Part shown: positions 3,010-28,728 of the stretch, one piece after another
Position numbering within the stretch: position 1 is the stretch's first letter
How the letters are laid out: every line of letters starts with the position of its first letter
Assembly: GCA_029210325.1 (NCBI GenBank)
Contig: JARGPU010000002.1
Span: forward strand, 124,001-188,000
Length of the DNA stretch: 64,000 nt
Direction: 5' to 3'
Source: Alcanivoracaceae bacterium
GTDB lineage: Bacteria; Pseudomonadota; Gammaproteobacteria; Pseudomonadales; Alcanivoracaceae
Position numbers and translations under genes: made by a program
The notes under the pieces: model-generated
What the model was told of the DNA's origin: nothing
Database searches by the model: none
The model's input: the letters and a program-made list of their open reading frames with translations, nothing else

Positions 3010-4131
3010 ATGACGACACTGATTTCCCGGTTTTACCGTTTTACGTTGGCAGGATGCCTGTTGGTTGTATTGGCCGGTTGCACGGTATTCCCCGGCTCCC
3101 ATCTGAAGGTCGACAAGCCGGAGCACTCCAACGCCGCTGAGCTGTCTGATATCGTTCGTGTACATGCCATTGATACGGGCCTGCTCAGCGCTGAGCCTGC
3201 GGCTCGCCCTCAACTGCCGGACACCCTGCTCCAGCAGTCGGAAGTTTACGATTATCTGGTTGGCCCCGGTGATGTGCTTAACATTACTATCTGGGGTCAT
3301 CCTGAGCTGACCATTCCCGCAGGCTCAATGCGTAGCGCCGAAGAGGCGGGTAACTGGGTCCACGCGGATGGCACCATTTTTTATCCTTATGTCGGCAAGA
3401 TTGAAGTTGCCGGCCTGAACGTCGCTACTATTCGTGACCTTATCGCGGAAAAGCTTCGTCGCTATATCGAAGACCCTCAGGTAGATGTGTCCGTAGCGGC
3501 ATTTCGCTCCCAGCGTGTGTATGTCACCGGTGCAGTGGGAAGCCCAGGCCCGGTGCCGGTGACTAATGTGCCGCTGCGTATGCTGGATGCACTGATTGCT
3601 GTTGGCGATGTTTCTGCCGACGCCGACTGGCAGCGTGCTGTATTAACGCGTGATGGCAAGAAATATCAGCTGTCGCTGTCTTCCCTGTTTGTGGATGGCG
3701 ATACCCGGCAGAATATTCTGCTGCAACACGGCGATGTGCTGCACTTGCCCAATAACAAGGATGGCAAGGTATTTGTTTTGGGTGAGGTGAACAAGCCTGC
3801 CTCAGTGGTGATGGATCGCAATGGTCTGACTCTGGCTGGTGCGCTAGCTGATGCGGGCAGTATCCGCGAATTGTCAGCCAATGCTCGCGGCATTTTTGTT
3901 ATGCGTGCCGGCGAAGAAAATGGTGAGCCACGTATTGATGTATTCCAGCTTAATGCCCGTAGTGCAACCGCGTTGGTATTAGCAGATCACTTCCAGATGC
4001 AGCCCCGCGATATTGTTTACGTCACCGCGGCACCGATTGCCCGCTGGAACCGCATCATTAGCAACCTGTTGCCGACAGTTAACGCGCTGTATCTAGGTGT
4101 TCGGGTCAATGAAGAAATTCGCGACCTGTAA
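3010..4131 (+). CDS. wza: Outer-membrane polysaccharide export lipoprotein (Wza family)
   Basis: Lipobox LAGC, Poly_export domain YDYLVGPGDVLNITIWGHPELT, SLBB-type repeats. Confidence 0.93.
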   Translation: MTTLISRFYRFTLAGCLLVVLAGCTVFPGSHLKVDKPEHSNAAELSDIVRVHAIDTGLLSAEPAARPQLPDTLLQQSEVYDYLVGPGDVLNITIWGHPELTIPAGSMRSAEEAGNWVHADGTIFYPYVGKIEVAGLNVATIRDLIAEKLRRYIEDPQVDVSVAAFRSQRVYVTGAVGSPGPVPVTNVPLRMLDALIAVGDVSADADWQRAVLTRDGKKYQLSLSSLFVDGDTRQNILLQHGDVLHLPNNKDGKVFVLGEVNKPASVVMDRNGLTLAGALADAGSIRELSANARGIFVMRAGEENGEPRIDVFQLNARSATALVLADHFQMQPRDIVYVTAAPIARWNRIISNLLPTVNALYLGVRVNEEIRDL

Positions 4132-4158
4132 TGGCGGTCTGGCTGATGTATACAAGCC

Positions 4159-4587
4159 ATGTTTGAAAAGATAGTGGTGGTGTGCACCGGAAATATCTGT
4201 CGTAGCCCAACAGCAGCGGCCATGCTTGCTGCCGCTGCGCCGGATAAACAAATCAGCTCCGCTGGCCTTGCCGCTCTGGTCGATCATGAGATGGATGGTG
4301 CCGCCCGCGAAGTGGCCGAAGCCCATGGCCTTTGTTGCCCGCCCCATCAGGCACGGCAACTGGATAGTGCTATTAGTAGTGGCGCAGATCTGTTGCTGGT
4401 AATGGATAAGCGGCAGCGTAACGAATTGATGCAGCGTTTCCCCATGGTCAGCGGAAAAACTTTTCTGCTCAGTCACTGGAACGGCGGTCACGATATTCCA
4501 GACCCTTACCAGCGCGACCGGGAAACCTTTGAGTATGTGTACAAGTTGATGGAGCAAGCCAGCAATGCCTGGCTCGCTCGCCTCTGA
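4159..4587 (+). CDS. wzb: Low molecular weight protein-tyrosine phosphatase (Wzb family)
   Basis: P-loop VCTGNICRSPTA near N-terminus and C-terminal DIPDPY. Confidence 0.95.
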   Translation: MFEKIVVVCTGNICRSPTAAAMLAAAAPDKQISSAGLAALVDHEMDGAAREVAEAHGLCCPPHQARQLDSAISSGADLLLVMDKRQRNELMQRFPMVSGKTFLLSHWNGGHDIPDPYQRDRETFEYVYKLMEQASNAWLARL

Positions 4588-4602
4588 CAAAAGGAATGCG
4601 AG

Positions 4603-6795
4603 ATGTCCGCAATTGGACCGGAAGCCCAAGGCGCCCAGCGCCAGGATGATGAAATCGACCTGCAAAAATTGCTGGGTGCAGTGCTTGATAACAAGCTGCT
4701 GATTATTGCTATTACGGCATTGGCGTTTTTGCTGGGCGTGTTCCATGCGTTTACCGCCACGCCAATCTATCAGGCAGACGCGTTGCTGCAGATTGAGAAG
4801 CAGGCAGGCATGCCTGGATTCGCCGAAATGTCCAAAGTACTCGATCAGGACAACTCCACCGCCGGCGAAATAGAGATTCTGCGTTCCCGTATGGTGCTGG
4901 GTGATGCAGTGGATTCTTTGGGCATGTCGGTAAGGCTGAGTCGTAAAAGCACGCCACTAATCGGACGCTTTACCAAGCCAGCTCCAGCAGCCGAGCCTGG
5001 TCCAATTTTTGCCGCTCTGGTTGATGCCAAGACCGATATTCGTGTGGCTGACTTTGTTGTGCCGGCAGCCTTGGAAGGCAGGCAGTTTACTCTGCAGCCG
5101 GACCCTGAGAGTGGCGAGGGCGGTTATCGTCTGTTGCTTGGTCAAAAGTTCATTCTTAGTGGGATGGCGGGCCAGTCAGTTAGTTCTGAAGATGGTGGTG
5201 TCATGTTGAAGCTGGATACTTTCAGTATGGCTCCGGGTGACACCGTTCTGCTTGGCAAGCAGCCCCGCCTTGCCTTGATAAGAGCCTTGCGTGGTGGTCT
5301 GTCCGTGTCCGAGCAGGGTCGTGGTAGCGGCATTCTGAATATTTCTTTTACTGGCCCATCGCAGCGAGGCAATCGCGCTATTCTTGATGCCATCGCCGAA
5401 GCTTATCTGATGCAGAACGTCAAAAGACTGTCTGCGGAAGTAGAAAAGAGTCTGGACTTCCTTGGTCAGCAATTGCCGGAGATTCGCGCCAATCTTGAGC
5501 TGGCAGAAGACCGTCTGAATCAGTTCAGATTGGAAAGTGGTTCCATCGATATGTCATTCGAAACCAGTCAGGTGCTAACCAGTCTGGTGGCGCTTGAGGC
5601 CAAGCAGAGCGAGCTACGCTACAAGGAAAAGGAACTGGCCAGCCTGTACACCCGAGAGCACCCCCTGTTTCGTACCCTGATTCAGCAACAACAGAATGTT
5701 GCCCAGGAAATTGAAAAGCTGTCGGAGCAGATGCGTGATCTGCCGGATACCCAACAGGAAGTACTGCGCCTGACACGGGATGTGCAGGTTAATCAGGAAA
5801 TCTATGTACAGATGCTGAACAAGTCCCAGGAGCTGCGTGTAGTAAGAGCGGGCACCGTGGGTAACGTACGCATTATTGACGAGGCCGTGAGCTCGCCGTG
5901 GCCGATCAAGCCGCAGAAGAGTTTGATCGTCATGCTGGCAACCATGTTTGGCGCCGTTGCCAGCGTAGCTATTGTGCTGTTGCGGGCCGCTTTCCATCGT
6001 GGCATTGAAACCCCTGCACAGCTGGAGGAAACCGGCTTGCCGGTGTATGCCACTATTCCGCTATCTGATCAGCAGCATAAACTGAGCGATTGGCTGGACG
6101 GTAAGCTGCAAAACCTTAGCGCGAAAAGCGGATTGCTGGCGCTGGAAAATCCCGCCGACCCGGCTGTTGAAGCGTTACGTAGCCTGCGCACCAGTTTGCA
6201 CTTTGCCATGATGGATGCGGGCAACCCTGTGATTATGGTCTCCGGCCCCAGTCCATCGGTGGGCAAGTCGTTCGTTTCGGCGAATTTGGCCGTGGCGCTG
6301 GCGCAGATTGGCCGTCGCGTGCTGCTGATTGATGGTGATATGCGTAAAGGCCACCTGCATAAGTATTTCAGTGTGCCGGTGGAAAGTGGCCTGTCTTCCT
6401 ACCTGTCCGGTCAGAATAGCCTTGAGCATGTGACCCACAAAACTGCCATCGACAACGTCGACTTTATGGCCCGCGGCGTGGTGCCGCCTAATCCTGCGGA
6501 ACTGCTCATGCACAGCCGCTTTGCCGAGCTGATCCAGCAGGTATCTGCTGAGTACGATCTGGTTATCATCGACTCACCGCCAGTGCTGGCGGTCACCGAC
6601 GCGTCCATTATTGGTCAATATGCTGGCACCAGCTTGCTGGTGGCTCGTTTTGCTCAGAACACGGTGCATGAAGTAGAGCTGGCTCGACAACGTTTTGCCC
6701 AGAACGGCGTGATCGTTAAAGGCACCATCCTCAATTGTATGGAGAAGCGCGCCGCTAACGCCTACGGCTACTACGCCTACAACTACAAGTCTTAA
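4603..6795 (+). CDS. wzc: Tyrosine autokinase / polysaccharide chain-length regulator (Wzc family)
   Basis: Wzz domain, Walker-type VMVSGPSPSVGKSFVSANLA and LLIDGDMRKG, C-terminal Tyr cluster NAYGYYAYNYKS. Confidence 0.95.
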   Translation: MSAIGPEAQGAQRQDDEIDLQKLLGAVLDNKLLIIAITALAFLLGVFHAFTATPIYQADALLQIEKQAGMPGFAEMSKVLDQDNSTAGEIEILRSRMVLGDAVDSLGMSVRLSRKSTPLIGRFTKPAPAAEPGPIFAALVDAKTDIRVADFVVPAALEGRQFTLQPDPESGEGGYRLLLGQKFILSGMAGQSVSSEDGGVMLKLDTFSMAPGDTVLLGKQPRLALIRALRGGLSVSEQGRGSGILNISFTGPSQRGNRAILDAIAEAYLMQNVKRLSAEVEKSLDFLGQQLPEIRANLELAEDRLNQFRLESGSIDMSFETSQVLTSLVALEAKQSELRYKEKELASLYTREHPLFRTLIQQQQNVAQEIEKLSEQMRDLPDTQQEVLRLTRDVQVNQEIYVQMLNKSQELRVVRAGTVGNVRIIDEAVSSPWPIKPQKSLIVMLATMFGAVASVAIVLLRAAFHRGIETPAQLEETGLPVYATIPLSDQQHKLSDWLDGKLQNLSAKSGLLALENPADPAVEALRSLRTSLHFAMMDAGNPVIMVSGPSPSVGKSFVSANLAVALAQIGRRVLLIDGDMRKGHLHKYFSVPVESGLSSYLSGQNSLEHVTHKTAIDNVDFMARGVVPPNPAELLMHSRFAELIQQVSAEYDLVIIDSPPVLAVTDASIIGQYAGTSLLVARFAQNTVHEVELARQRFAQNGVIVKGTILNCMEKRAANAYGYYAYNYKS

Positions 6796-9501: not shown

Positions 9502-10788
9502 ATGTCTTCCGCACCGCTGGTAGAAAATGTCAAACTGGCCGTGATTGGCCTGGGCTATGTGGGCCTGCCACTTGCTGTGGAATTCGGCAAGCACTACCCG
9601 GTAATCGGCTTCGATATTAATCAGAAGCGTATCGATGCTCTCAAAGCCGGCATCGATAGCACGCTGGAAGTCAGCCCGGCGGAAATGGCCGAAGCCAAAC
9701 AACTCCACTACAGCTGCGCCCCGGCAGACCTGAACGACTGCAACATCTATGTCGTCACTGTGCCCACGCCGATCGATGAGCACAAACGCCCGGATCTCAC
9801 TCCCCTGATCAAAGCCAGTCAAACCATTGGCAAAACTCTGAAAGTGGGCGACATCGTTATCTATGAATCCACCGTCTACCCTGGTGCTACCGAGGAAGAC
9901 TGTGTGCCGGTGCTGGAGAAAGTCTCCGGCCTGACCTTTAACAAGGATTTCTTCGCCGGCTACAGCCCGGAGCGGATCAACCCGGGCGACAAGGAACACC
10001 GCGTTACCACCATTATGAAAGTGACCTCCGGCTCCACTCCGGAAGTCGCCGACAAGGTCGACGCGCTCTATAAAAGCATCATCACCGCCGGCACTCACAA
10101 AGCTAGCTGTATCAAGGTGGCGGAAGCAGCCAAGGTCATTGAGAACACCCAGCGCGATCTGAACATCGCCCTGATTAACGAGCTGGCAATGATCTTCAAT
10201 AAAATGGACATCGACACGCTGGATGTTCTTGAAGCCGCCGGCACCAAATGGAACTTCCTGCCGTTCCGTCCCGGTTTGGTGGGAGGTCACTGCATCGGTG
10301 TGGATCCTTACTACCTGACCCACAAGGCCCAGCAGATTGGCTACCACCCGGAAGTAATTTTGGCCGGCCGAAAAGTGAATGATGGTATGGGCCGCTATGT
10401 GGCGAGCCAGATGATCAAGGCCATGTTGAAAAAGGGCATCCATGTAAAAGGTTCGCGGGTTCTGGTAATGGGCCTGACCTTTAAGGAAAACTGTCCGGAC
10501 TTACGCAACACCCGTGTGATCGACGTGATCGATGAGCTGAAGGAATATCACGTTGATGTGGATGTGTATGATCCGTGGGTAGATCCGCAAGAAGCGAAGC
10601 ATGAATATGGTATTGAGCCAATCAAGGCGCCACAACCGGGCGTCTATGATGGCATTGTCATTACCGTTGGCCACAGTGAATTCAAGGCATTGGATCAGGC
10701 AGCCCTGCGAGCTTTTGGTAAAGAAGAGCTGGTATTGTTTGACCTGAAATATGTGGCCAGTAAGCAGGCAGTGGATTTACGCTTATGA
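9502..10788 (+). CDS. tviB: UDP-N-acetyl-hexosamine 6-dehydrogenase, TviB/WbpA-like
   Basis: [51 protein letters not shown]. Confidence 0.92.
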
Positions 10789-11288: not shown

Positions 11289-11333
11289 GCTAGTTTCCAC
11301 TGCCAACAGGGCAGAGCGGGGGAGTAAAAGCGT

Positions 11334-11356
11334 CTGCGTTCAATCACTGAACGCAG
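11334..11356 (+). promoter_or_regulatory. Leader hairpin upstream of ops
   Basis: ctgcgttca-atcac-tgaacgcag perfect 9-bp stem. Confidence 0.6.
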
Positions 11357-11364
11357 GCAATATC

Positions 11365-11376
11365 CAGGTATACCTG
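11365..11376. promoter_or_regulatory. 12-bp perfect palindrome (candidate operator)
   Basis: caggtatacctg immediately upstream of ops and the MarR-like gene. Confidence 0.45.
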
Positions 11377-11387
11377 CAACACGGTAG

Positions 11388-11399
11388 GGCGGTAGCGTG
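11388..11399 (+). promoter_or_regulatory. ops element (RfaH recruitment site)
   Basis: GGCGGTAGCGTG, identical to the core E. coli ops sequence, 11 nt before the ATG of the EPS regulator and adjacent to rfaH. Confidence 0.85.
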
Positions 11400-11410
11400 C
11401 CCGGAGTAAC

Positions 11411-11740
11411 ATGATTCAAGAAGACTCCCACTACAAATTGATGCGCTTGATCGAACAAAACCCGGAGCTATCCCAGCGTGAGCTCGCTAAAGCGCTGGGT
11501 GTCAGTCTCGGCAAGGCCAATTACTGCGTAAAAGCGCTGATCGAAAAAGGCTGGGTAAAAGCCAATAACTTCCGTAGCAGCAAAAACAAGCTGAGCTATG
11601 CCTATCTGCTCACCCCGGAGGGTATTGAGCAGAAGGCCCGGCTGACCCGCAACTTCCTGCAGCGAAAGATGCAAGAGTACGAAGCGCTGCAACAGGAAAT
11701 CCGTCAGCTACAGAAAGACATGCAGGAAACAGCCAAGTGA
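11411..11740 (+). CDS. MarR-family EPS-associated transcriptional regulator
   Basis: w[44 protein letters not shown] plus C-terminal coiled coil. Confidence 0.88.
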
Positions 11741-12801
11741 AAATACTCGTTACCGGCGGTGCAGGGTTTATTGGCTCAGCGGTTATCCGCCATATCATCA
11801 ATAACACCCAAGACAGTGTCGTTAATCTGGATAAGCTGACTTACGCGGGTAATTTGCAGTCACTGGAAAGTGTTAGTGGTGATGCCCGTTACGCTTTCGA
11901 GCAGGTGGATATCTGTAATCGCGCCGAGCTGGACCGTGTTTTTGTCCAGCATCAGCCGGACGCAGTGATGCATCTGGCGGCAGAGAGCCACGTGGACCGC
12001 TCTATCGATGGCCCGGCGGCATTTATTGAAACCAATATTGTTGGCAGTTACACCCTTCTGGAAGCGGCGCGCCAATACTGGCAATCACTACCCGCTGCAG
12101 CCAAAGCCCTGTTCCGTTTTCACCATATATCAACCGACGAGGTTTATGGTGATCTTGAAGGCCCGGAAGACCTGTTCACCGAGCAGACCCCGTATGCTCC
12201 CAGCTCCCCCTATTCAGCCAGCAAGGCCAGCTCAGATCATCTGGTGCGGGCCTGGCTGCGGACCTATGGACTGCCTACGCTGATTACCAACTGCAGCAAT
12301 AACTACGGGCCGTATCACTTCCCGGAAAAGCTGATTCCGCTAATGATTTTGAATGCGCTGGAAGGCAAGCCACTGCCCGTATATGGCAAGGGCAACCAGA
12401 TTCGCGACTGGCTTTATGTGGAAGACCACGCCCGGGCGCTATACAAGGTGGTCAGCGAAGGGAAAATTGGCGAGACCTATAATATTGGCGGCCACAACGA
12501 AAAGCAGAATATAGAAGTAGTGCATATTCTGTGTGAGCTGCTGGAAGAGCTGTGCCCGCAAAAGCCAGAGGGCGTGCAGCATTACAAAGACCTTATTAGC
12601 TATGTAAAGGATCGCCCTGGCCACGACCTGCGTTATGCCATTGATGCCAGCAAAATCGAGCAACAGCTGGGTTGGGTGCCAGAAGAAACCTTTGAATCAG
12701 GGATCCGTAAAACGGTGAACTGGTACTTGAACAACCAGCAATGGTGCAAGAACGTGCAGGACGGCAGCTACCAACGGCAAAGATTGGGGGTGGAAGCCTG
12801 A
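11737..12801 (+). CDS. rfbB: dTDP-glucose 4,6-dehydratase
   Basis: [55 protein letters not shown]. Confidence 0.97.
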
Positions 12802-13700
12802 TGCGTGTCCTGCTGTTCGGTAGGAATGGGCAAGTAGGCTGGGAGCTGCAGCATAGTCTGGCACCACTGGGCGAGCTGATCGCGCTGGATCGGCAGGGTG
12901 AGGATGGCTTGTGTGGCGACCTCGGCAATCTACCAGGCTTGACCAATACATTGGACACCCTGCAGCCGGACATCATCGTCAACGCAGCGGCCTATACCGC
13001 GGTAGACAAGGCGGAACAGGAAGCAGAGAGCGCCCATCTGATAAATGCTCAAGCGCCGCAGCGCATGGCACAGTGGGCAGCAAAGACCGGCGCGTTACTA
13101 GTGCATTACTCCACGGATTACGTATTCGATGGAAGTGGAGATGCGCCCTATAGCGAAGATGCGCCGGCAGCCCCTGCCAATGTCTATGGGCAGACCAAGC
13201 TTGCCGGTGAAAAGGCCATACAGGAAAGTGGTTGTCGCTATCTGATCTTTCGTACCAGCTGGGTATATGCCGCACGTGGTAATAATTTTATGAGGACTAT
13301 GCTGCGCCTGGGTGCCGCCCGGGAACAGCTGGATATTGTCTGTGATCAGATTGGCGGGCCTACCCCGGCCAGACTTGTGGCAGAAATCACCGCACAGTCC
13401 TTGCGCGATAATCTGGCTAGTGGGCTGTATCACCTGACCACTAGCAACCACACCAGCTGGCATGGATTTGCTCAGGAAATATTTCGTCAGGCGGGGGAGG
13501 CGGGTGCGCGGCTGGCAATCAATGTAGATCAAGTCCGGCCCATCCCCAGCAGTGAGTACCCGGTTGTCGCCAAGCGGCCACTCAACTCGCGCCTGTCAGT
13601 GGACAAGATTCAGTCAGCACTGGGCATCCAATTGCCAGAATGGCAAAGCCAACTCAGGCTAACGCTGAACGACTATCTAAAAGATCACCTGAAAGGATAA
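12801..13700 (+). CDS. rfbD: dTDP-4-dehydrorhamnose reductase
   Basis: [41 protein letters not shown] overlap with rfbB fixes the start. Confidence 0.96.
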
Positions 13701-13704
13701 AACC

Positions 13705-14577
13705 ATGAAGGGAATTATTCTCGCCGGAGGCTCTGGTACGCGCCTTTATCCCATTACCCGGGGGATCTCCAAGCAGCTATTGCCGATCTATGACAAGCCA
13801 ATGATCTATTACCCGCTGTCCGTGCTGATGCTGGCGGGTATCCGGGATGTGCTGATCATCACTACCCCAGAGGACCAGTCCGGCTTTCAGCGGCTATTGG
13901 CCGATGGTAATCAATGGGGCATCAATATCAGCTATGCGGTGCAGCCCAGCCCGGACGGCCTGGCACAGGCATTTATTATCGGTGAGGACTTTATCGGCAA
14001 GGATAGCGTCTGTTTGGTGCTGGGCGACAACATCTACTATGGCCAAGGCTTCAGCAGGATTCTGCAGAATGCGGCCAGCATGCCCACTGGTGCCACAGTG
14101 TTTGGTTATCAAGTAACCGACCCGGAACGCTTTGGTGTGGTTGAGTTTGATCAGAATAACCGAGCTGTCTCCATTGAAGAAAAGCCGCTCAAGCCTAAAT
14201 CCGATTACGCAGTGACCGGGCTGTACTTCTACGACAATGACGTTATCGAGATCGCCAAAAACGTTAAGCCCTCTGATCGTGGCGAGTTAGAGATTACCAG
14301 CGTCAATCAGGCCTATCTGGAGCGAGGGGACCTGAATGTGGAGCTACTGGGCCGCGGCTTTGCCTGGCTGGATACGGGCACCTTCGAATCGCTGCATGAA
14401 GCCTCTGCATTTATTGAGATCATCGAGAAGCGCCAGGGGCTGAAGGTTGCCTGCCTGGAGGAGATTGCCTGGCGCATGGGTTATATAAGCCGTGACAAGC
14501 TCATGGAAGAAGGGCAGAAGCTCATGAAGAACAGCTATGGCGCTTATCTGATAAAGCTGGCTCAAGCGACTAAATAA
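13705..14577 (+). CDS. rfbA: Glucose-1-phosphate thymidylyltransferase
   Basis: [39 protein letters not shown]. Confidence 0.98.
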
Positions 14578-14587
14578 AGGCGCAGTA

Positions 14588-15172
14588 ATGAAAATCACTA
14601 GCACCCGTATTCCAGATGTGAAGCTGATCGAACCAAAAGTGTTCGGAGACGAGCGTGGCTTCTTTATGGAGACCTGGAATGACAAAGCCTTCCGCGAAGC
14701 AGGAATAGACTCCACCTTCGTGCAGGATAACCATAGCCGCTCGGTCAAGAATACCCTGCGAGGCCTGCACTACCAGATCAAGCAGCCGCAGGGAAAGCTG
14801 GTGCGAGTTACCCGCGGTGAAGTGTTTGATGTGGCGGTTGACCTGCGAACCGGATCACGCACCTTTGGCCAATGGGTAGGGGAGTACCTGTCGGAGGAGA
14901 ACAACCGAATGCTGTGGGTGCCGCCCGGATTCGCCCATGGCTTTCTGGTAACGAGTGATGCGGCCGATTTCCAGTACAAGTGCACGGACTTCTACTCTCC
15001 TGAATACGAGCGCTCAATTTGCTGGAATGATCCAATCCTGAACGTTGACTGGGCTGTGTCGAACCCGGAAGAGCTGCTGCTATCGAACAAAGATAGGCAT
15101 GCCCAGAGTCTGCAGCAAGCTATGGCCGAACTTGAGGCAAGCTCTCAAATCAAACCAGAGACAAGTGCTTGA
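14588..15172 (+). CDS. rfbC: dTDP-4-dehydrorhamnose 3,5-epimerase
   Basis: DERGFFMETWND, VQDNHSRSVKNTLRGLHYQIKQPQGKLVRV. Confidence 0.97.
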   Translation: MKITSTRIPDVKLIEPKVFGDERGFFMETWNDKAFREAGIDSTFVQDNHSRSVKNTLRGLHYQIKQPQGKLVRVTRGEVFDVAVDLRTGSRTFGQWVGEYLSEENNRMLWVPPGFAHGFLVTSDAADFQYKCTDFYSPEYERSICWNDPILNVDWAVSNPEELLLSNKDRHAQSLQQAMAELEASSQIKPETSA

Positions 15173-16975
15173 ATGTTTAAACAACTTAAAGATCTCTACT
15201 CACTCCTTACCGATCAGCAACGTAAAAAGCTTCTCAGGCTTCAGCTATTGGTCGTGCTGATGGCAGTGGCAGAGCTGGGAAGCGTGCTTTCCATTGGCCC
15301 TTTTATGGCTCTGGTGGGAGATATGAGCCTGCTGCAGCGCGAGGGGATGGTGGGCGATATCTATCGCCTAAGTGGCATTGATAGCCCTCGAATGTTTATG
15401 ATTTTAGTCGGCGCAGCTGTATTGCTTTCGTTATTCATGGCCGCAGCCATCTCCATACTGACTATCTGGCGTCTCTCAATGTACGGCTCGATCGTGGGGG
15501 CGGAGCTCAGTAGCCGTCTATATCGTCACTATATGCATCAACCTTGGCTTTTCCATGCGGGTGGCAGTAGCAGTCAGCTCACCAATCAGATAGCGCAGGA
15601 GTGTAATCGAATTACGGCTGGTATTATCAACCCGTTAATGCAGATGAACGCCCGCATCGTGATGGCGACACTGATGGCAATAGCTATTTTTCTATTCAAC
15701 CCTGCTGTCGCGATCACTGGGCTGACGGTGTTCGCAGTGGCCTATTTCGCGATGTACAGAGTTGTGCGACAAAAGCTCATCAGAAATGGCGGCATCATAA
15801 CCTCATCTCAGCGGCTCCGATTTAAGTTGATGGGTGAAGGGTTCGGCGGCATCAAAGACGTGCTTCTGCTGGGCAGGCAGCAGATTTTCACAGATCGATT
15901 TGACACTGCCAGCGCTCACTTCGCCGCTGCTCAGGGTAAAAGCCAAGTAATGGGCCAAGTGCCACGCTTCGTGATGGAGCTGGTGGCCTTCGGCGGCGTA
16001 ATCTTCCTGATTCTTTACCTGCTCGCTGCTTACGATGGTAATTTGGGCACTATACTGCCAGTGCTTTCAGTCTATGCTCTGGCTGGGTTCAAGTTGCTGC
16101 CGGCATTTCAGCAGATATACAGCAGTGTCTCCAGTATTCGAGGCAGTCTGACGGCGTTCGAAGGGCTGCGAGAAGATCTCAGGGCGAGCGCAACCGCGAC
16201 CCTGCAGTTGGCGCGCAGTGACAGCGGTCAAGAGCAATTGATCCCTCGCCAGTCCATCCAGATCAAGAACGTACAGTTCACCTACCCGGATAAAGCTGAG
16301 CCTGCGCTTCGAGATATAACAATGACCATCGGCGTAAATAAAGTCATTGGCCTTGTAGGTGCATCAGGTTCAGGCAAGTCGACAGTCATTGATATCCTGC
16401 TCGGACTGATTCAGCCAGACAAGGGGATGTTGGTGGTAGATGGTGAGCCGCTTACAAAGCAGACCCTGCGCTCCTGGCAAAATTCTTTGGGATTCGTGCC
16501 TCAATCTATCTTTCTCGCAGACAGTAGTATTCGCGAGAACATAGCATTCGGACTGCCTCTTGATCTGGTCGATGAAGAAAAAGTCAGGAAGGCAGCCAGC
16601 ATGGCCCATTTGGATGAGCTATTGGCGGAGTTGCCGCAAGGTCTGGACACCAGAGTTGGAGAGCGAGGAGTGCAGCTGTCAGGTGGTCAGCGTCAGCGTA
16701 TCGGCATTGCTCGTGCGCTTTACAATGATGCAGATGTCTTGATTCTTGATGAAGCAACCAGTGCGCTTGATGGCATAACTGAAGAACTGATTATGGATGC
16801 TATTCATGACTTCTCTGGAAAGAAGACTATAGTCATGATTGCGCACCGACTTGCCACGGTGCGCAAGTGTGACATTATTTATTTTCTTGAAGGTGGTTGT
16901 GTGGTGGACAAAGGAAGCTATACAGAGCTGCTCGAGCGCAGTCCAACGTTCAAGAAGATGGCTCAGAATGCATAG
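15173..16975 (+). CDS. ABC transporter, fused permease/ATPase (PglK/MsbA-like lipid-linked oligosaccharide exporter)
   Basis: N-terminal TM domain, Walker A GASGSGKST, signature LSGGQRQRIGIARAL. Confidence 0.9.
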   Translation: MFKQLKDLYSLLTDQQRKKLLRLQLLVVLMAVAELGSVLSIGPFMALVGDMSLLQREGMVGDIYRLSGIDSPRMFMILVGAAVLLSLFMAAAISILTIWRLSMYGSIVGAELSSRLYRHYMHQPWLFHAGGSSSQLTNQIAQECNRITAGIINPLMQMNARIVMATLMAIAIFLFNPAVAITGLTVFAVAYFAMYRVVRQKLIRNGGIITSSQRLRFKLMGEGFGGIKDVLLLGRQQIFTDRFDTASAHFAAAQGKSQVMGQVPRFVMELVAFGGVIFLILYLLAAYDGNLGTILPVLSVYALAGFKLLPAFQQIYSSVSSIRGSLTAFEGLREDLRASATATLQLARSDSGQEQLIPRQSIQIKNVQFTYPDKAEPALRDITMTIGVNKVIGLVGASGSGKSTVIDILLGLIQPDKGMLVVDGEPLTKQTLRSWQNSLGFVPQSIFLADSSIRENIAFGLPLDLVDEEKVRKAASMAHLDELLAELPQGLDTRVGERGVQLSGGQRQRIGIARALYNDADVLILDEATSALDGITEELIMDAIHDFSGKKTIVMIAHRLATVRKCDIIYFLEGGCVVDKGSYTELLERSPTFKKMAQNA

Positions 16976-17008
16976 TTGAATGGCAATATAAAAAGGGGAA
17001 AGGGGAAA

Positions 17009-17779
17009 ATGGAGTTTCGCAGTTTTGTCCGAAAGGCTTTCCAATACTTTAGTATCGATATTCATCGGATATATCGAGATGACTCGCCTTTTATAGATCC
17101 GGCGCAAGCAATGATTGCTTCTGTCTTGCATAATGGAAAGCGGTCCAGATTTCTGGTTGCGGACACGTTTGATGTGATACAGAAGCATCATGCAGATGGG
17201 AAGTTCTACGAGCAGGACCTGCTTGATGTACTAGCGGAAAATATTAAAGAGGGTGCATGCTTTGTCGATATCGGTGCAAATGTTGGAAATCATTCAATAT
17301 TTGCAGCTGTCCATCTTGGGGCGTCGCGAGTTATTGCTTTTGAGCCGATGAGACTCCAACACGCAATTCTGTCCATTAATGTTCTATTAAACGAACTTCA
17401 AGAAAAGGTAGAGATTCACAAGCTCGCATTGTCGGATCGTTCTGAATTTGCCCGTATGATAACTCCAAACGCTCATAACATTGGTAGAAGTATGATTTCC
17501 GCCGGTGTGTATGGCGAATGGGTAAAGCTTGTTCGGGGCGATGACCTGTTGTCAGCCGCGCAGGTAGACTTCATTAAAATTGATGTAGAGGGTCACGAGA
17601 TGGAGGCTCTTGCAGGCCTTGCGGGGACGATTGATCGCTGCCGTCCAGCGATGCTGATCGAGGTTTCAGATGTGAACGGTACCGATTTTGAGAACTGGTT
17701 GATGGATAATAATTATTCGGTATCGTGGCGTATGCGTCATCATGGCGAAAACACTGAAGTGCTTGCTCTTCCAGGCTGA
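17009..17779 (+). CDS. FkbM-family methyltransferase
   Basis: FVDIGANVGNHSIFAAVHLGASRVIAFEPM, DFIKIDVEGHEMEALAG; the ATG at 17009 has a better RBS than the ORF-track start. Confidence 0.88.
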   Translation: MEFRSFVRKAFQYFSIDIHRIYRDDSPFIDPAQAMIASVLHNGKRSRFLVADTFDVIQKHHADGKFYEQDLLDVLAENIKEGACFVDIGANVGNHSIFAAVHLGASRVIAFEPMRLQHAILSINVLLNELQEKVEIHKLALSDRSEFARMITPNAHNIGRSMISAGVYGEWVKLVRGDDLLSAAQVDFIKIDVEGHEMEALAGLAGTIDRCRPAMLIEVSDVNGTDFENWLMDNNYSVSWRMRHHGENTEVLALPG

Positions 17780-17812
17780 GGTCTGCATAGGGTTGGTGAT
17801 ACAGGTCTTCAA

Positions 17813-18736
17813 ATGACTAAAATTTATCCACGGTTTACACCTGCCTCTCTTGGCAATGGTGTTCCAGTTTTGCTGATCTCCCTTCAGGATCAGTCGAGCA
17901 GGCGTCAGGATCTTATTTCGAGGGGCGTTCCCGAGAGCTGGGTGCACTCATTCTTTCCGGCAATCGATTTGAGAGATGCGCTGGAACAAGATATTGCCCC
18001 GCTTGCTGATCTTGTCGCATTCGAGAGCGAGTTTTCCAGGAGAATGAGGGCTGCGGAAGTTGGCTGTGCGCTGTCCCACAACGCGGTTGCCGCCTGGTTG
18101 GTGTCTTCTCCATTTTCAATCGCGCTTGTTCTTGAGGATGATGTGATACCGCAGACGCCAGATTGGCTCGATCAATTGGCTGCTATCGCAGACGCGTTGT
18201 CCCCTCATGCTCGAAGCGGCGCTGCCTTTATTTGTCATTTGGGAGCTCCATCTAATCAGATTGGCCCCGCGCTAAAGCGAAAGGTCACTTGGCGAGATGG
18301 TCGGCCACCTGCCGATATGCCACAGATTTTTCTGCATGCCGACCCCGCAAGTGGTCTATGGCGAGCGCATGCTTATCTTATATCGAGAGCGGCGGCCGAG
18401 CGTAGCTCAACTCGGGAAACTCCCATCATGACGCTTGCAGATGATTGGTGTGAGCGTAGGCGCCGAGGCTGGCTTGATGAGATTTTTTTTACACAGTCAG
18501 CCTTGATTGGTCAGGATGAGGATCGGCCGAGCACAATCAGGCCTTCTGATCATAGCGACTACATTAGAGACACGGCTGAGCAGGGTTCGTTCTTGACACG
18601 AGTCGGGCGATCATTGGCTAATCGAACCTTTCTAAAGCGCCTGTATGGTTCTGTACGGTTTAGGGCGGTTATTGCACTGGCTCGCTTTGTTGCAAGGAGG
18701 GCATACAGTGTCAGTCTTACAGTTCCACGTGAGTAG
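17813..18736 (+). CDS. Glycosyltransferase family 25 (LPS-type)
   Basis: VLLISLQDQSSRRQDL, AEVGCALSHNAV, ALVLEDDVIP. Confidence 0.8.
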   Translation: MTKIYPRFTPASLGNGVPVLLISLQDQSSRRQDLISRGVPESWVHSFFPAIDLRDALEQDIAPLADLVAFESEFSRRMRAAEVGCALSHNAVAAWLVSSPFSIALVLEDDVIPQTPDWLDQLAAIADALSPHARSGAAFICHLGAPSNQIGPALKRKVTWRDGRPPADMPQIFLHADPASGLWRAHAYLISRAAAERSSTRETPIMTLADDWCERRRRGWLDEIFFTQSALIGQDEDRPSTIRPSDHSDYIRDTAEQGSFLTRVGRSLANRTFLKRLYGSVRFRAVIALARFVARRAYSVSLTVPRE

Positions 18737-18894
18737 CATCGTTGTTGCGTGGGGCTCTGATGCTGATCGGTTCGGTATTTCCTGAAAGCCGATATCTTGC
18801 AGTTTAAGGCTCGACGATCCCTCTAAGGTAAATAGAAATTATCAATGTTGAGCATTTCGTAACAGCTTTGAGTCTTAGTATATTGAGTGTTGGT

Positions 18895-20067
18895 ATGCCG
18901 ATTAATGACATTAATCAGAAGCGCGCTTCCGGAAAGATACTACATATTGCTAGTTGGTATCCGAATCCATGGGATGGCTTAGAAGGGAATTTTGTACGCG
19001 ACCAGATTCGTGTCTTCAGACAAGAGCTGGACGCCGAAACTATTGTTGTGCAAGTCAGGACATCGGCCGGTCATTGGCCAAGGTTGCGAACAATTACACT
19101 AGATGACGGAGCGAGAGGATACTTCCTGCTGGCGGCAGTAAAGCCCGGAAAGGTGCTGGAGTGGTTGTCGAGTATTTTTCTTGTCATTGTGCTTATTAGG
19201 GAGCGGGCATGGCTATATAAAGCCTTGCATTTTCATATCGCCTATCCACTTCTGCTGCATTCTAGGCTTTGGAGAAAGATATTTAGACGACCAATTATGA
19301 TTAGTGAACATTGGTCAGCCTACCACTATAATTTTTATTTGCCGGAAAGCTCTAAAGCGTTGCTTACGCTTCGAAAGCCTTTTCAGCAAGGGGATGCCGT
19401 CTTGGTAGTGTCGAAAGCACTCCTTAGGGATATTCGTCGATTTTCTGGCTGCGATAGTTTCCCGCAATTTGTTATTCCCAATTTTGTGCCGCTTCATGGC
19501 GCTTCGGATGGGAATCAGCAGGTTCCTACGTTATTCGCCGTGAATCGGTGGCGTTCGATTAAAAGCCCGATGCCGATGTTAGAGGGGCTTGAGATGGCGG
19601 CTAGGCTGGGGGCTGAATTCAAGCTGGTTATAGGCGGCTTTGGTGAGATGATTAATGAGATGGATTCCTTCGTGCAGCTCGGCGCATTAAAAGGCCGTAC
19701 TATCTTTTTTAGCAAGATGACAAAGCTCCAGATTGCGGATCAACTTGCCGGCAGCGATGGATACCTGTTCTCTTCGGACTACGAGACATTCTCAATAGCC
19801 TGTGCGGAGGCACTTGGAGCCGGTATTCCTCTGATCGGGCCAGACATCCCCGCAATCGCGGAATATGCCAGTGACACGGAATGGGTCAAAGTAAAGTCTC
19901 GAGATGCTCAAGGGTGGAGCGTTGCGATTGCGTCCTTTCTTGATCGACATAACGCTGGTGAGTTTGCCCCTGATCTAATAGCTAAGAGGGCTGCGCAGCA
20001 CTTCTCCACGGATGTAATCCGGCGCAGATATCGTGAGGCAATGACATTCTTGGGCATCATGCGGTAG
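18895..20067 (+). CDS. Glycosyltransferase family 4
   Basis: ILHIASWYPNPWDGLEGNFVRDQI, DGYLFSSDYETFSIACAEALGAGIPLIG; start uncertain (TTG 18868 or ATG 18895). Confidence 0.85.
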   Translation: MPINDINQKRASGKILHIASWYPNPWDGLEGNFVRDQIRVFRQELDAETIVVQVRTSAGHWPRLRTITLDDGARGYFLLAAVKPGKVLEWLSSIFLVIVLIRERAWLYKALHFHIAYPLLLHSRLWRKIFRRPIMISEHWSAYHYNFYLPESSKALLTLRKPFQQGDAVLVVSKALLRDIRRFSGCDSFPQFVIPNFVPLHGASDGNQQVPTLFAVNRWRSIKSPMPMLEGLEMAARLGAEFKLVIGGFGEMINEMDSFVQLGALKGRTIFFSKMTKLQIADQLAGSDGYLFSSDYETFSIACAEALGAGIPLIGPDIPAIAEYASDTEWVKVKSRDAQGWSVAIASFLDRHNAGEFAPDLIAKRAAQHFSTDVIRRRYREAMTFLGIMR

Positions 20068-20086
20068 TTATGAAAGGTGGCAACAT

Positions 20087-20359
20087 ATGAAACCCGGTCG
20101 CCCTTTGCTCGTGCCACTGTTTCAGCAGCTTCAAGTGCCGCAGGCGGCGGATGAGGCTAATATGCATATCGGCAAGAGGCGAATCCGTACTTGTCATTAC
20201 GTCTGGATAGTCGCGGGTAACCTAGCCCGTCATATTCGTTATCGTTTCGCTCCTGATATTATCGATGAGCTGCTCAGGCTGCAGTGGTGGAACTGGAGTG
20301 AGGAAAGGCTGCGGTCTGAGGCTACCTATTTGACAAGAATCCATAGTAAACCCGCATGA
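20087..20359 (+). pseudogene. Remnant C-terminus of a CatB/xenobiotic-type O-acetyltransferase
   Basis: YVWIVAGNLARHIRYRFAPDIIDELLRLQWWNWSEERLRSEATYL resembles the conserved C-terminus (GNPAKxIRYRF...WWDW); the hexapeptide-repeat body is absent. Confidence 0.65.
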
Positions 20360-21453
20360 CTACTGTTCTTATTATCTCTCCGGAGCCATGGGAAGGGCAC
20401 TTTGTCAGCAAGCATCATTATGCGATGGAGCTGGCCCGGCGGGGGCATGATGTGCTTTTCTATGGCCCTCCTGCCTTTCACAATGAAGTTCGGCTTGATG
20501 ATATTTCTGTCACCAACGGTCGTCTTCGAATATTGCATGCACCGCGAGTGGCCCCTGGGTTGCGGCGCCTTCCGCGCATTATACGACGTTTCCTTGAGGG
20601 GCGGTGGCTTGCTCGGCTAGAAAGGTTGTTGCAGCAGCGCATAGAGATAATCTGGAATTTTGAGAACTCTCGATTTTTTGACCTCGGATTTGCTGGGGAT
20701 CGTTTAAAAATCTATCAGCAGGTAGATCTGAACCAGGACTTCGAGCCAGATATAGCCGCTGCGACAGCAGATCTTTCAATAGCGATTTCCGGCCCTATCG
20801 AGAAACGTTTGGCGCCAGTAGCACAGCAACTTATTCGGATCACTCATGGATATTCGCCGCTACGGAGCAGGGTGCCTGCTCCTCTTGGTATTGATAGCAT
20901 CTTTGCAAAGTTTGGCGCCAAAGTCGTTTTGACCGGGAATCTGGATATTGCCTATCTGGATGTAGAGCTTCTGACCCAGCTCGTTAACACTAACCCGAAT
21001 GTGCAGTTTCATTTTGTCGGCTCCTATGCAACCGGGAAAGGTCTGCATGCGGCGACAGCATCTTCTGCTAACGTCGCCTTTTGGGGTAAACACCCGGCGG
21101 ATGCCCTGCCTCACTTTCTGGAACGTGCGGATGTTCTGCTCGTGGCCTATAGAGCAGACATGCATCTTGAGCAGCTGGCCAACCCTCACAAGATGATGGA
21201 ATACCTAGCCTCAGGCAGGTGTGTTCTGGCGACGCGGACTTTGGAGTATGAGGGGAGGTCAGACTTGGTGGAGATGCCAACAAGTCGGGAGGAGTATCTT
21301 CATACCTTTGCCGCGATTATCAGAAACCCTTTGGCCTGGAATACTCCAGAACTCATCGCACGTCGCCAGGCTTTCGCTCTTGATAACTCTTACTCACGTC
21401 AACTTGACCGTATTGCCGCGGCGCTCGGCTCTCGCGGTCGCTTGATTGGCTGA
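20356..21453 (+). CDS. Glycosyltransferase (GT-B)
   Basis: EPWEGHFVSKHHYAMELARRGHDVLFYGPP, ANPHKMMEYLASGRCVLATRT. Confidence 0.8.
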   Translation: MTTVLIISPEPWEGHFVSKHHYAMELARRGHDVLFYGPPAFHNEVRLDDISVTNGRLRILHAPRVAPGLRRLPRIIRRFLEGRWLARLERLLQQRIEIIWNFENSRFFDLGFAGDRLKIYQQVDLNQDFEPDIAAATADLSIAISGPIEKRLAPVAQQLIRITHGYSPLRSRVPAPLGIDSIFAKFGAKVVLTGNLDIAYLDVELLTQLVNTNPNVQFHFVGSYATGKGLHAATASSANVAFWGKHPADALPHFLERADVLLVAYRADMHLEQLANPHKMMEYLASGRCVLATRTLEYEGRSDLVEMPTSREEYLHTFAAIIRNPLAWNTPELIARRQAFALDNSYSRQLDRIAAALGSRGRLIG

Positions 21454-21468
21454 CCTATAGGTTTAGTA

Positions 21469-22725
21469 ATGACCACAAAAACTCCTGTTATCATCTTTCT
21501 TTACAATCGCCTTTTTGACCCGCTAATTCAGGGGAATTTCTGGCTCTATATCGATAGCTATTTGAATGATAGTGCTAGTCAGGTACGGTTTCACGTCATT
21601 ACCTATGAAGATCCGAAGCATCCGTTAACTGACGAGCAAAAGACAATCGTAGAGCAATGGAAATCTCAAGGCATGGAGTGGACAGCGTTAAGCTGGCACC
21701 CCGGAATCGGGATAAAGCAGAAGCTGGCTGACTTGATCGCTGGATTTCGTGTTGCTCTGCGTTTGCGCTGCAGGGGCTTTCGGCACATCGTCACTCTTGG
21801 ATCTGTTGCGGGCACCTTTGCCTACTTGTACTCGATCCCTCTTAGGCTGCGTCAATTCTTGTACCAGTATGAGCCGCACTCCGAATATGCCGTTGATAAC
21901 GGGATGTGGCCGGCGAACAGCCTACAGACTCGCTTGTCCCGTTTGCTTGAGAGGCGCGCGGCACAGGGCGCTGCTGTAGTGGCTTCTGGTACTCGCTTTA
22001 TGGAGGAAAGAGTCAAGCAAGTTTGGCGCTCCCAGGCAAAGTTCGTCAAAGTCCCGACGGTAGCGAATGATCAAAAGTTTATCTTTGACTCGGAAGTCAG
22101 GAAGCGAGTTCGTACACAGCTTGGTATCACGGAAGACCAGAGTGTGCTGTTCTATCCGGGTAAGTTTGACGGTCTTTATTATGGCGATGAAACTGCATTT
22201 ATGTTCCGCTGGCTGCTCGATATGGACTCTAGTCTGCACTTTCTGATAGTGACGCCCCATGATGACGATGAGGTCCATGGGCGTTTCGATCGGGCCGGAG
22301 TGCCGCGTGATGCCTACACGATTTGCCACTCCGATTATGCCGGTATACACCCGTATTTTTTTGCCGCTGATTTTGCTGTGATTGCCGTGCCTCCCGGTCC
22401 ATCTAAAAAGTTTATATCCAACATCAAAGTGGGTGAGTATCTTTGTGCGGGGCTGCCGTATTTGATTACTCGTGGTGTTTCTGAGGATTACTTGTTCGCC
22501 GAAGAGAACGATGTTGGCGTTGTAGTAGATGATTTTACGGAGTCTGATATCAAGGCCGCCTGGCCTAAAATTCAGGACTACCTTGAGCGCGATGCAGATG
22601 AGCGGCGAAAGCACTGTCGAGATAAGGGCCTTGGCTACCGGGGCTTTGATACACTAAATCCTCGATTTCGGCATGCAATTGACATCTTGATGGGGCATGA
22701 CATGGATGAATCCTATGATCGCTAA
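21469..22725 (+). CDS. Glycosyltransferase (GT-B-like)
   Basis: Position in cluster; C-terminal half FFAADFAVIAVPPGPSKKFISNIKVGEYLCAGLPYLITRGVSEDY. Confidence 0.7.
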   Translation: MTTKTPVIIFLYNRLFDPLIQGNFWLYIDSYLNDSASQVRFHVITYEDPKHPLTDEQKTIVEQWKSQGMEWTALSWHPGIGIKQKLADLIAGFRVALRLRCRGFRHIVTLGSVAGTFAYLYSIPLRLRQFLYQYEPHSEYAVDNGMWPANSLQTRLSRLLERRAAQGAAVVASGTRFMEERVKQVWRSQAKFVKVPTVANDQKFIFDSEVRKRVRTQLGITEDQSVLFYPGKFDGLYYGDETAFMFRWLLDMDSSLHFLIVTPHDDDEVHGRFDRAGVPRDAYTICHSDYAGIHPYFFAADFAVIAVPPGPSKKFISNIKVGEYLCAGLPYLITRGVSEDYLFAEENDVGVVVDDFTESDIKAAWPKIQDYLERDADERRKHCRDKGLGYRGFDTLNPRFRHAIDILMGHDMDESYDR

Positions 22726-23707
22726 GCATCTTTTGGTAACCGGAGGGGCAGGCTCCTTTGGCCGTGCTTTTGTTGAGCATCTATTGGCCTCTTCTGACTG
22801 CCCTGAGAGGATTACAGTATTCTCTCGCGATGAGCATAAGCATTACGAAATGGCGCATCATCTTTCCCAGCACGCCAGCCGATTACGTTTTGTTATCGGC
22901 GATATCCGCGATGCGATCCGAGTAGATGAGGTTTTGGCCGGCGTTGATGTTGTTGTTCATGCTGCAGCTATGAAGCATGTGCCCGCTGCCGAGGCTAATC
23001 CCTACGAGTGTATGCGTACCAACGTAGAGGGTGCGAGGAACCTCGCAATGGCAGCAAATCGTCATGGCATCAAGAGAGTCGTAGCGCTGTCTAGCGATAA
23101 GGCGGTTTCGCCTTCTACGATCTACGGAGCGTCCAAGTTTGCCATGGAGCGTGTACTGATACAGGCCGGGCTCGCCGGTTGCACACGCTTTAGCGTGGTC
23201 CGTTACGCCAATGTATTTGCCAGTGGCGGCTCGGTTGTTCCGTTTTTTCTACGGATTAAAGAGCAGGGGTTTCTGCCTATCACCGACCCATTAATGACCC
23301 GCTTCTCAATCACTATGCAAGAAGGAATCGATCTGGTTCTGTTTGCACTAAAAGAGGGGTTGGGGGGCGAAATTGTTGTGCCTATCGCACCTTCATATCG
23401 GGTTGTAGATGTTGCCATGGCAATAGCTCCCGACGCTGAACATCGCATTATTGGTGCGAGACCAGGCGAGAAAATGCATGAGTCTATGTTTTCACTTACT
23501 GAGGCGCCTTTTGTTGTAAGGAACGGCCAGTATTATGTTGTTTTGCCGCAAAGCGGGCCGATGACGCTGGCAGATTATTGTTGTGCTGTGCCTACCGCAA
23601 ACGCTCTTGATGTTCCATTTGAGTATGAATCAGGATCAAATTCTAGGTGGTTGAATGTAGATGATATTCGTGTGCTCATTCGTAGTGTAATGGGGGTTGG
23701 GTGCTAA
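22715..23707 (+). CDS. PseB/FlaA1-type UDP-GlcNAc 4,6-dehydratase-like SDR
   Basis: LLVTGGAGSFGRAFVEHLL, FSRDEHKHYEM, HAAAMKHVPAAEANPYECMRTNVEG, YGASKFAMER. Confidence 0.88.
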   Translation: MIAKHLLVTGGAGSFGRAFVEHLLASSDCPERITVFSRDEHKHYEMAHHLSQHASRLRFVIGDIRDAIRVDEVLAGVDVVVHAAAMKHVPAAEANPYECMRTNVEGARNLAMAANRHGIKRVVALSSDKAVSPSTIYGASKFAMERVLIQAGLAGCTRFSVVRYANVFASGGSVVPFFLRIKEQGFLPITDPLMTRFSITMQEGIDLVLFALKEGLGGEIVVPIAPSYRVVDVAMAIAPDAEHRIIGARPGEKMHESMFSLTEAPFVVRNGQYYVVLPQSGPMTLADYCCAVPTANALDVPFEYESGSNSRWLNVDDIRVLIRSVMGVGC

Positions 23708-24678
23708 GTTCTGGGCTGCCTTTGCATCGACTTCCATCGATTCTTCGTAATCGTTCAATTGGTTTCTGTCGAAGGGTTGGATTTACACTTGCTGGCCCAA
23801 GAAACACGCTTCGTGCTGAAGATGCCATAGTAATTTGTGCCGATCCTCGAGGTGGGTCAACTTGGCTTTATGAAATGCTGTCTCGTATTAACGGGGTGGC
23901 CGGATTGTGGGAGCCGCTACATATAGGGCAGGTAAGCCATTTTCGAAAGATTGGGTTTGGCTGGAGGCATTATATTGCAGAAAATGATTCTGTGCCGGCC
24001 GCCAGGAAAGCTTTTGAAGATCTTTTTCAAGGTCGTTGCCGCGATCCTTATATACTACATCGCACATCTTTCAATAGTTTCCGCGATGCTGAGTTGTTAC
24101 TTGTGAAGTTTTGCAGAGCAACCCAGCTTCTGCCATGGCTTAGTCGAGAGTTTGGCTTTGTACGCAGGCCTGTCCACCTTGTACGCCATCCATGCGCTAT
24201 AGTGGCCAGTCAGATTAAGTATGGCGCCTGGGACACAGTTCGTCCTGCATTTTCAGAGCAAGATATCCTGTCCGATCCTCTAATGCGGCCGTATGCTGAC
24301 GAGCTTCAACGCATTAATACTATTGAAGCTCGTCTTGCCGCAGTTTGGGCGCTGACTAATCAGGTCGCTTTGAATCACCCACAGCGTGAGCAACGGTGGT
24401 TGACTGTTAGCTATGAAGGTCTTGTTTCCAGTCCTGTTGATACTCTGTCAAGGGTATTGAGCGATTGGAAGCTTTCTTTGGATGCAGACATTGAAGAGAT
24501 TATCCTGAGGCCTAGTAAAACGACTCTTAAATCCAGTCCCATTGCACTCGGCGAGGAAATGGCCCAGCTGTCATACTGGCAAAAGTCACTTACTCCCAGT
24601 CAGATACGAAGCATTCTCGATACCGTTGAGGCTCTTGGCGTAGGGATATATGACGGCGGAGTATATCCGAGATTATGA
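23701..24678 (+). CDS. Sulfotransferase family protein
   Basis: ADPRGGSTWLYEMLSRI (PAPS 5'-phosphosulfate loop type), HLVRHPCAIVASQIKYGAW (3'-phosphate binding type). Confidence 0.82.
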   Translation: MLSSGLPLHRLPSILRNRSIGFCRRVGFTLAGPRNTLRAEDAIVICADPRGGSTWLYEMLSRINGVAGLWEPLHIGQVSHFRKIGFGWRHYIAENDSVPAARKAFEDLFQGRCRDPYILHRTSFNSFRDAELLLVKFCRATQLLPWLSREFGFVRRPVHLVRHPCAIVASQIKYGAWDTVRPAFSEQDILSDPLMRPYADELQRINTIEARLAAVWALTNQVALNHPQREQRWLTVSYEGLVSSPVDTLSRVLSDWKLSLDADIEEIILRPSKTTLKSSPIALGEEMAQLSYWQKSLTPSQIRSILDTVEALGVGIYDGGVYPRL

Positions 24679-24745
24679 TTGCGCCTTGTGTGGCTAGAAG
24701 CATCCAGTTCGCAGGTGTTGTTTCTGTCATCGCTTTCTCTTTGCT

Positions 24746-25585
24746 GTGTCATTTTCAGGATTTCCTGTTGTGAAGGTATCTGTCATTACCCCTGTTTTTA
24801 ATGGTGAATTTTATATTGATTCCGCGATTCAGTCGGTTATAGCGCAAACCCTCCAGGGCTGGGAGCTGATTGTCGTTAATGATGGCAGCTGCGATGGTAC
24901 TGCTGCCATTCTTGATGGATTAGATGATCCTCGTATTCGAGTAGTTCATCAGGCCAATGGTGGCGTTAGTTCCGCCCGAAATGTCGGACTCGAACTAGCG
25001 CAGGGCGAATACGTCACTTTTCTGGATGCCGATGACTGCTTGCCCCCGGATGCTCTCAGGGTTCGGTCCGCTTTTCTGGATGAGCACCCCAAAGTTGATA
25101 TTGTTAATGGTAGTGTCAATGTCATGTCCGCTGGAAAGCTGATTCGAATCTATAAGCCGGATCTCACTATTGGGCCTCTGCTGGGTCGTCTTGCAACGCT
25201 GGATGAGGGGGTTTTCTTTGGCGTGAATTACATGCTGCGGCGTGAGAAGATCCAGCTTGAGCGTTTCCCTGAGGGTGCTAGCCACTGCGAGGATGTTATC
25301 TTCTTCTTGTCGCTCGCTCATCAGGCTAACTTGATCTACGGTGCCGTCTCGGATGTTGTTTACGAGTATCGTATTCAGGCCGGTTCGGCAATGGCGAATC
25401 TTGATGGCATCGAACGCGGATATCTTGAGCTGTTAAGGCGTACTCGCGAGATGCCCCATATCAGTGATGCTATACGCAAGGTGCAGCGACACCGGGTTCG
25501 TCGAATCTTGTTTCGGTCGTGGCTGCGTCGCGCAAGGCCTCTGCGCGCCATCGCAGCGCTGGCCAAAATTTACCGTATGGCCTGA
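24746..25585 (+). CDS. Glycosyltransferase family 2
   Basis: VSVITPVFNGEFYIDSAIQSVIAQTLQGWELIVVNDGSCDGT, VTFLDADDCLPPDAL; start may be the GTG at 24770. Confidence 0.93.
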   Translation: MSFSGFPVVKVSVITPVFNGEFYIDSAIQSVIAQTLQGWELIVVNDGSCDGTAAILDGLDDPRIRVVHQANGGVSSARNVGLELAQGEYVTFLDADDCLPPDALRVRSAFLDEHPKVDIVNGSVNVMSAGKLIRIYKPDLTIGPLLGRLATLDEGVFFGVNYMLRREKIQLERFPEGASHCEDVIFFLSLAHQANLIYGAVSDVVYEYRIQAGSAMANLDGIERGYLELLRRTREMPHISDAIRKVQRHRVRRILFRSWLRRARPLRAIAALAKIYRMA

Positions 25586-25592
25586 GTGCTGC

Positions 25593-26672: not shown

Positions 26673-26692
26673 TTGGACAGGATGATGATGGC

Positions 26693-28678: not shown

Positions 28679-28728
28679 GTTTTACTTATCTGATCCGCAT
28701 TAGCGGTGATTAACATTTTTCGGAATTT

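Follow-up and report, generated by a model that had tools for sequence, protein, structure and literature searches.

RfaH is recruited at the ops element to paused RNA polymerase and antiterminates long lipopolysaccharide (LPS) and capsule operons. Escherichia coli RfaH, with the ops (JUMPstart) elements of the LPS, capsule, and hly operons, offers the nearest comparison for the locus described here, since the protein encoded in the window (the whole 64,000-nt stretch of DNA analyzed, from the oil-degrader family Alcanivoracaceae) belongs to the same subfamily and the identical 12-nt ops stands before a long polysaccharide operon. In E. coli, however, rfaH is a single cistron whose product serves several operons in trans (PMC7593976), while the window has one RfaH gene next to one exact ops, with substitutions at H20, R16, and R73. 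RfaH genes located within exopolysaccharide operons have been described as clusters CL2–CL8 (PMC7593976) and as monomorphic orthologs (PMC13015549). These likewise lie in envelope-polysaccharide loci, and the available portions of those accounts report no ops beside the gene, whereas here a canonical ops occurs in the leader just downstream. The same portion of PMC7593976 describes the CL4 cluster as neighboring an HTH regulator, and the recruitment mode of NusG paralogs encoded in their target operons as unknown.

Beyond polysaccharide-operon RfaH, UpxY (Bacteroides), LoaP (Bacillus), and TaA (Myxococcus) are also already known as specialized NusG paralogs whose genes lie within or beside the operon that they serve (PMC7593976; PMC7819879). 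For UpxY, the target 5′ leaders are located upstream of its own gene (PMC7819879), whereas the ops site here is downstream of rfaH. The window protein also scores far lower with UpxY (66.6 bits), NusG (55.6 bits), and LoaP (50.1 bits) than with the RfaH family TIGR01955 (136.8 bits, below the curated cut-off of 144.5). In the open-access literature we found no description of a canonical ops that recurs just 3′ of rfaH genes of this kind, of an operator for the TIGR04176 regulators (two incidental mentions of the family only), or of a MarR_EPS operator paired with ops.

Within one kilobase of the EPS locus, the window contains an RfaH gene, an ops element, a repressor gene, and a putative repressor site (Table 1). 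Because this arrangement, as a whole or in parts, recurs in distant bacteria, it looks like a real switch.

Table 1. Features of the EPS locus and its leader, in window coordinates.
Feature	Position	Strand	Basis
wza, wzb, wzc export block (373, 142, 730 aa)	3010..6795	+	Pfam Poly_export/SLBB/Wza_C, LMWPc, Wzz/GNVR/AAA_31; upstream of ops
UDP-GlcNAc 6-dehydrogenase, TviB type	9502..10788	+	NF011729, 651 bits, over cut-off
RfaH-like NusG paralog, 167 aa	10785..11288	+	TIGR01955 best NCBIfam match; E. coli RfaH best PDB relative
Possible weak sigma70-like promoter, CCAACA-16-TAAAAG	11303..11330	+	7/12 consensus positions; placed as in homologous leaders
Proposed MarR_EPS operator, inverted repeat CTGCGTTCA-N5-TGAACGCAG	11334..11356	.	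Core GTTCA-N5-TGAAC at 11338-11352
ops element GGCGGTAGCGTG	11388..11399	+	Exact sequence and comparative conservation
GGAG, likely Shine-Dalgarno of marR, directly 3′ of ops	11403..11406	+	Sequence
MarR family EPS-associated transcriptional regulator (MarR_EPS), 109 aa	11411..11740	+	TIGR04176
EPS gene run, presumed ops/RfaH-controlled	11737..30887	+	Gene content (see text)

The initial annotation had placed a perfect ops between the RfaH-like gene and the MarR_EPS gene, and an exact match is indeed found there, 99 nt after the rfaH stop codon and 11 nt before the marR_EPS ATG. A genome-wide search for further ops sites and rfaH copies, which the same annotation had proposed, returned this exact 12-mer as a single copy both in the window and in the whole 3.03-Mb genome (99.85% complete), and the adjoining gene as the only RfaH-type paralog; a separate housekeeping NusG (57.8 bits) is encoded on contig C10. 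No second exact ops was found upstream of wza in the window, in agreement with the earlier suggestion that wza-wzb-wzc may lie outside ops control. In pattern searches of the genome, the looser word GGCGGTAGNNTG has eight matches, the other seven of which overlap open reading frames, versus 11 for the reversed control word; these counts are uninformative and were set aside as evidence, as was a 12-bp palindrome just 5′ of ops (CAGGTATACCTG) that is not kept in a congener. For so short a motif, word statistics by themselves carry little weight. The position of ops is more telling: an exact match in the 122-nt rfaH–marR gap has a chance of about 7 × 10−6 (assuming uniform bases), and ops is found again at this place in relatives.

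This recurrence was followed in several sets of genomes. In relatives of genus g3, from the same family, the identical 12-mer lies 70–145 nt 3′ of the rfaH stop in 10/10 cases, with RfaH proteins 29–35% identical to that of the window. A profile of these RfaH proteins identified 80 loci in named genomes, of which 33 have an exact ops on the same strand within 700 nt downstream of rfaH (median 114 nt). The controls gave three matches in the upstream 700 nt and none for either the antisense strand or the reversed word, and the remaining 1.32 Mb of these loci contains 10 exact matches. At this background rate the binomial tail is approximately 10−63, a figure that ignores relatedness, the 80 loci not being independent. 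The loci with the pairing span Pseudomonas, Halopseudomonas, Marinobacterium, Thalassolituus, Kangiella (where the ops word ends in A), Pseudidiomarina, Granulosicoccus, and Halieaceae. They include two types of ops flank, a JUMPstart-like one with CTCAGGAAnTnGACGnTAAATCCTGG before ops (Pseudomonas and kin) and the MarR_EPS-leader type found in the window; the full order of rfaH, operator, ops, and marR is repeated in two Granulosicoccus loci. A fortuitous ops, with MarR_EPS alone controlling the operon, would fit the finding that GGCGGTAGNNTG is no commoner in the genome than its reversed control, but the exact 12-mer keeps its relative position from family to family, which already disfavors this explanation; we regard it as extremely improbable. 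Given the recruitment question raised above, an ops some 60–200 nt after many operon-encoded rfaH genes would offer a concrete, testable answer for many Pseudomonadota.

Copy number of the 12-mer differs elsewhere. Five genus g4 relatives (G005, G012, G016, G022, and G025) have 4–11 exact GGCGGTAGCGTG copies each, versus one here. Another genome, G044, has 22, and a protein search there gave a NusG-like match only; the word may be used for something else in that organism.

The regulator encoded directly after ops is a clear member of TIGR04176 (167.6 bits, over the curated cut-off of 88) and the sole copy in the genome. The initial annotation overlooked a likely MarR_EPS operator in the stretch between rfaH and ops, given which a transcription unit probably begins at 11.3–11.4 kb. 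The 700 nt upstream of 58 MarR_EPS genes from broad genome samples were searched, and GTTCA-N5-TGAAC is present upstream of 50 of them. Spacing of the half-sites is nearly fixed: apart from the five nucleotides used, a spacing of six occurs once, and all others from 0 to 15 are absent from the 58 loci. When all 1024 possible 5-nt half-sites were compared at spacing five, the next best reached 2/58. The inverted repeat of the window recurs as sequence 5′ of marR_EPS in Granulosicoccus and Luminiphilus, and the form extended into its flanks, GCGTTCA-N4..7-TGAACGC, is present at a single genomic site. Four other genomic GTTCA-N5-TGAAC sites were rejected as further operators, being about as numerous as expected by chance and all overlapping open reading frames (in one case a 76-codon frame only).

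In the homologous leaders, sigma70-like promoters are predicted directly 5′ of the palindrome (mean best score 8.0/12, versus 6.08, sd 0.25, in shuffled sequence), and the palindrome is accordingly placed at about the predicted transcription start, the classic position of a repressor site. From its presence in 50/58 leaders just after such promoters, GTTCA-N5-TGAAC is very probably the operator of MarR_EPS; the site is proposed here and is not a published criterion for the family. It could instead act as an RNA hairpin, either an attenuator or a transcript stabilizer, and the region does fold better than its shuffles (z = −3.1). For a hairpin, pairing would suffice and one fixed sequence would not be required, whereas the half-sites show no covariation and keep one sequence, at a fixed spacing and at a promoter/start position, throughout those leaders. 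This argues for recognition of DNA by protein over an RNA stem, and, with no T run after the inverted repeat in the window, we consider the hairpin explanation highly unlikely; an intrinsic terminator is rejected on the same absence of a T run. As an operator, GTTCA-N5-TGAAC would provide a predicted DNA site for a family of EPS regulators. In two Candidatus Odyssella loci and in locus L068, two tandem copies 23 or 34 nt apart lie 5′ of marR_EPS, which suggests cooperative operators.

Where a leader contains both elements, ops is 3′ of the operator in 13/13 cases, at a distance of 47–112 nt in 11 leaders and of 210 and 343 nt in the other two. The median distance from operator to marR is 241 nt in leaders with ops versus 32 nt in those without. 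Across 31 MarR_EPS genomes, RfaH is encoded in 10/11 that have a leader ops versus 5/20 that lack one (Fisher p = 0.0006). The sequence elements themselves, how they are conserved, ordered, and spaced, and how they associate with rfaH and marR_EPS are direct observations. In several of the leader-ops genomes rfaH is not adjacent, its distance exceeding 100 kb in G194 and G168, for example; from this gene placement, service of the same leader type by RfaH in cis and in trans appears to occur in both forms. The operator predicts which EPS loci pair control of initiation with control of elongation.

The leader was also compared with known RNA families. Its best Rfam match is the JUMPstart RNA (RF01707), at 11366–11399 over the full model length and ending on ops, but the score of 17.7 bits (E = 0.93) falls below the gathering threshold of 35, so the leader is not a member by the Rfam rule and this identity was rejected; no gathering-level match to RF01707 was found in the loci of six relatives. 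A variant ops, TGCGGTAGCCTG, lies between the MarR_EPS operator and marR in locus L068 (10874–10885) and in the L082 and L153 leaders, and is possibly a lineage-specific form.

The best PDB relative of the RfaH-like protein is E. coli RfaH (2e-17). In a tree of 105 homologs, it falls among RfaH proteins, with those of Halieaceae and Granulosicoccus (97/84) and apart from the RfaH of other Alcanivoracaceae genomes, so horizontal transfer of the EPS locus is probable. In E. coli RfaH, the ops contacts are K10, H20, R23, and R73, and R16 matters as well (PMC5995543; PMC2871177); alanine at R73, R16, or H20 strongly impairs ops recognition (PMC2871177; PMC5995543). The initial annotation had named the loss of these N-terminal contacts as an argument against its proposal of a local RfaH acting in cis at ops, and here the result is divided: K10 and R23 are kept, while H20N, R73L, and R16V are substituted. 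The proposal is otherwise well supported by comparative data, namely by the only RfaH-type gene and the only exact ops in the genome and by their recurrent pairing.

These substitutions raise the alternative that ops is a relic. The module would have been inherited with an ops-reading RfaH that has since lost recognition (R73L, R16V, and H20N), ops would now serve only as a pause site, and RfaH, being synthesized locally, would load on RNA polymerase without sequence specificity. The loss of R73 and R16 is consistent with this, as are two relatives, L064 (V73) and L068 (L73), that have no exact ops within 700 nt, and cis-acting RfaH orthologs with constitutive activity have been put forward in a preprint (PMC13015549). 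L73 is common to the window protein and L068, whose leader has only the variant ops. Several comparisons point the other way. Five distant homologs with F73 or Y73 (L110, L119, L130, L133, and L136) keep an exact ops 62–188 nt downstream, four close relatives with V16 or I16 (L065, L066, L067, and L069) retain an exact ops too, and N20 is the usual residue in ops-bearing RfaH relatives. Both congeners also retain ops at 12/12 positions, which is weak evidence: one of them, G001, is approximately 91% identical across the whole region, so that sharing ops with it does not on its own point to selection. As judged from the F73 and Y73 homologs, the loss of contacts makes a local RfaH acting at ops a weaker proposal without refuting it, and we consider a relic ops unlikely. 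R73 was dropped as a predictor of a nearby ops (28/61 homologs with R versus 5/19 without, p = 0.18, not significant). With R73L next to a perfect ops, the window RfaH offers a natural experiment on ops reading.

In an AlphaFold2 (AF2) model, the C-terminal domain of the window protein is a beta barrel; F130 is replaced by Y, and E48 and R138 are kept. The control homolog L085, which has all of the ops contacts, gave the same fold on the same alignment, and AF2 was dropped as a test of autoinhibition because it does not discriminate.

Taken together, the model we favor, and judge likely on these comparisons, is a promoter repressed by MarR_EPS followed by an ops that loads the local RfaH for the EPS operon. 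The 122-nt rfaH–marR gap (11289–11410) would be the control leader of this operon, with two elements in series, the first consisting of the promoter region and the operator, placed at the transcription start or immediately beyond it. Reasoning from what is known of MarR and RfaH proteins, we infer that MarR_EPS, the product of the first gene of the operon, would bind this operator and repress its own operon. RNA polymerase would pause at the second element, ops, about 50 nt beyond, where RfaH from the adjoining upstream gene would load through contacts with the non-template ops strand. Once loaded, RfaH would displace NusG, protect against Rho-dependent polarity, and perhaps recruit ribosomes, allowing some 19 kb of downstream sugar-nucleotide, export, and glycosyltransferase genes to be transcribed to the end. 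The start of rfaH overlaps the stop of the dehydrogenase gene (ATGA), and rfaH is thus probably translated from the upstream transcript, with the wza-tviB unit. Read-through transcripts of this wza-tviB-rfaH unit would cross ops too, and may also feed it, since the promoter match of the window itself is weak (7/12). That weak promoter counts against the favored model, as do L73, V16, and N20 and the TIGR01955 score just below its cut-off. A broader proposal is more tentative, and we hold it to be somewhat doubtful: that operator and ops form a widespread, transferable two-stage cassette, served by RfaH in cis or in trans, and that the window encodes a one-target RfaH able to read a standard ops without R73, R16, and H20.

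The gene run after marR_EPS includes rmlB, rmlD, rmlA, rmlC, an ABC exporter, an FkbM methyltransferase, glycosyltransferases, a sulfotransferase, an asparagine synthase, and an EpsG polymerase. EPS genes continue on the + strand past 30.9 kb to 36.6 kb, and no excess of terminator-like sites was found in 17.5–37 kb. Between wzc and the nucleotide-sugar genes, 6838–8217 encodes a beta-CASP/metallo-beta-lactamase RNA-specificity protein (Beta-Casp, RMMBL), possibly an RNase within the EPS operon. A 418-aa open reading frame in the operon (21469–22725) has no Pfam match at 1e-5, and the sulfotransferase gene (Sulfotransfer_3; 23701–24678) suggests that the polysaccharide may be sulfated.
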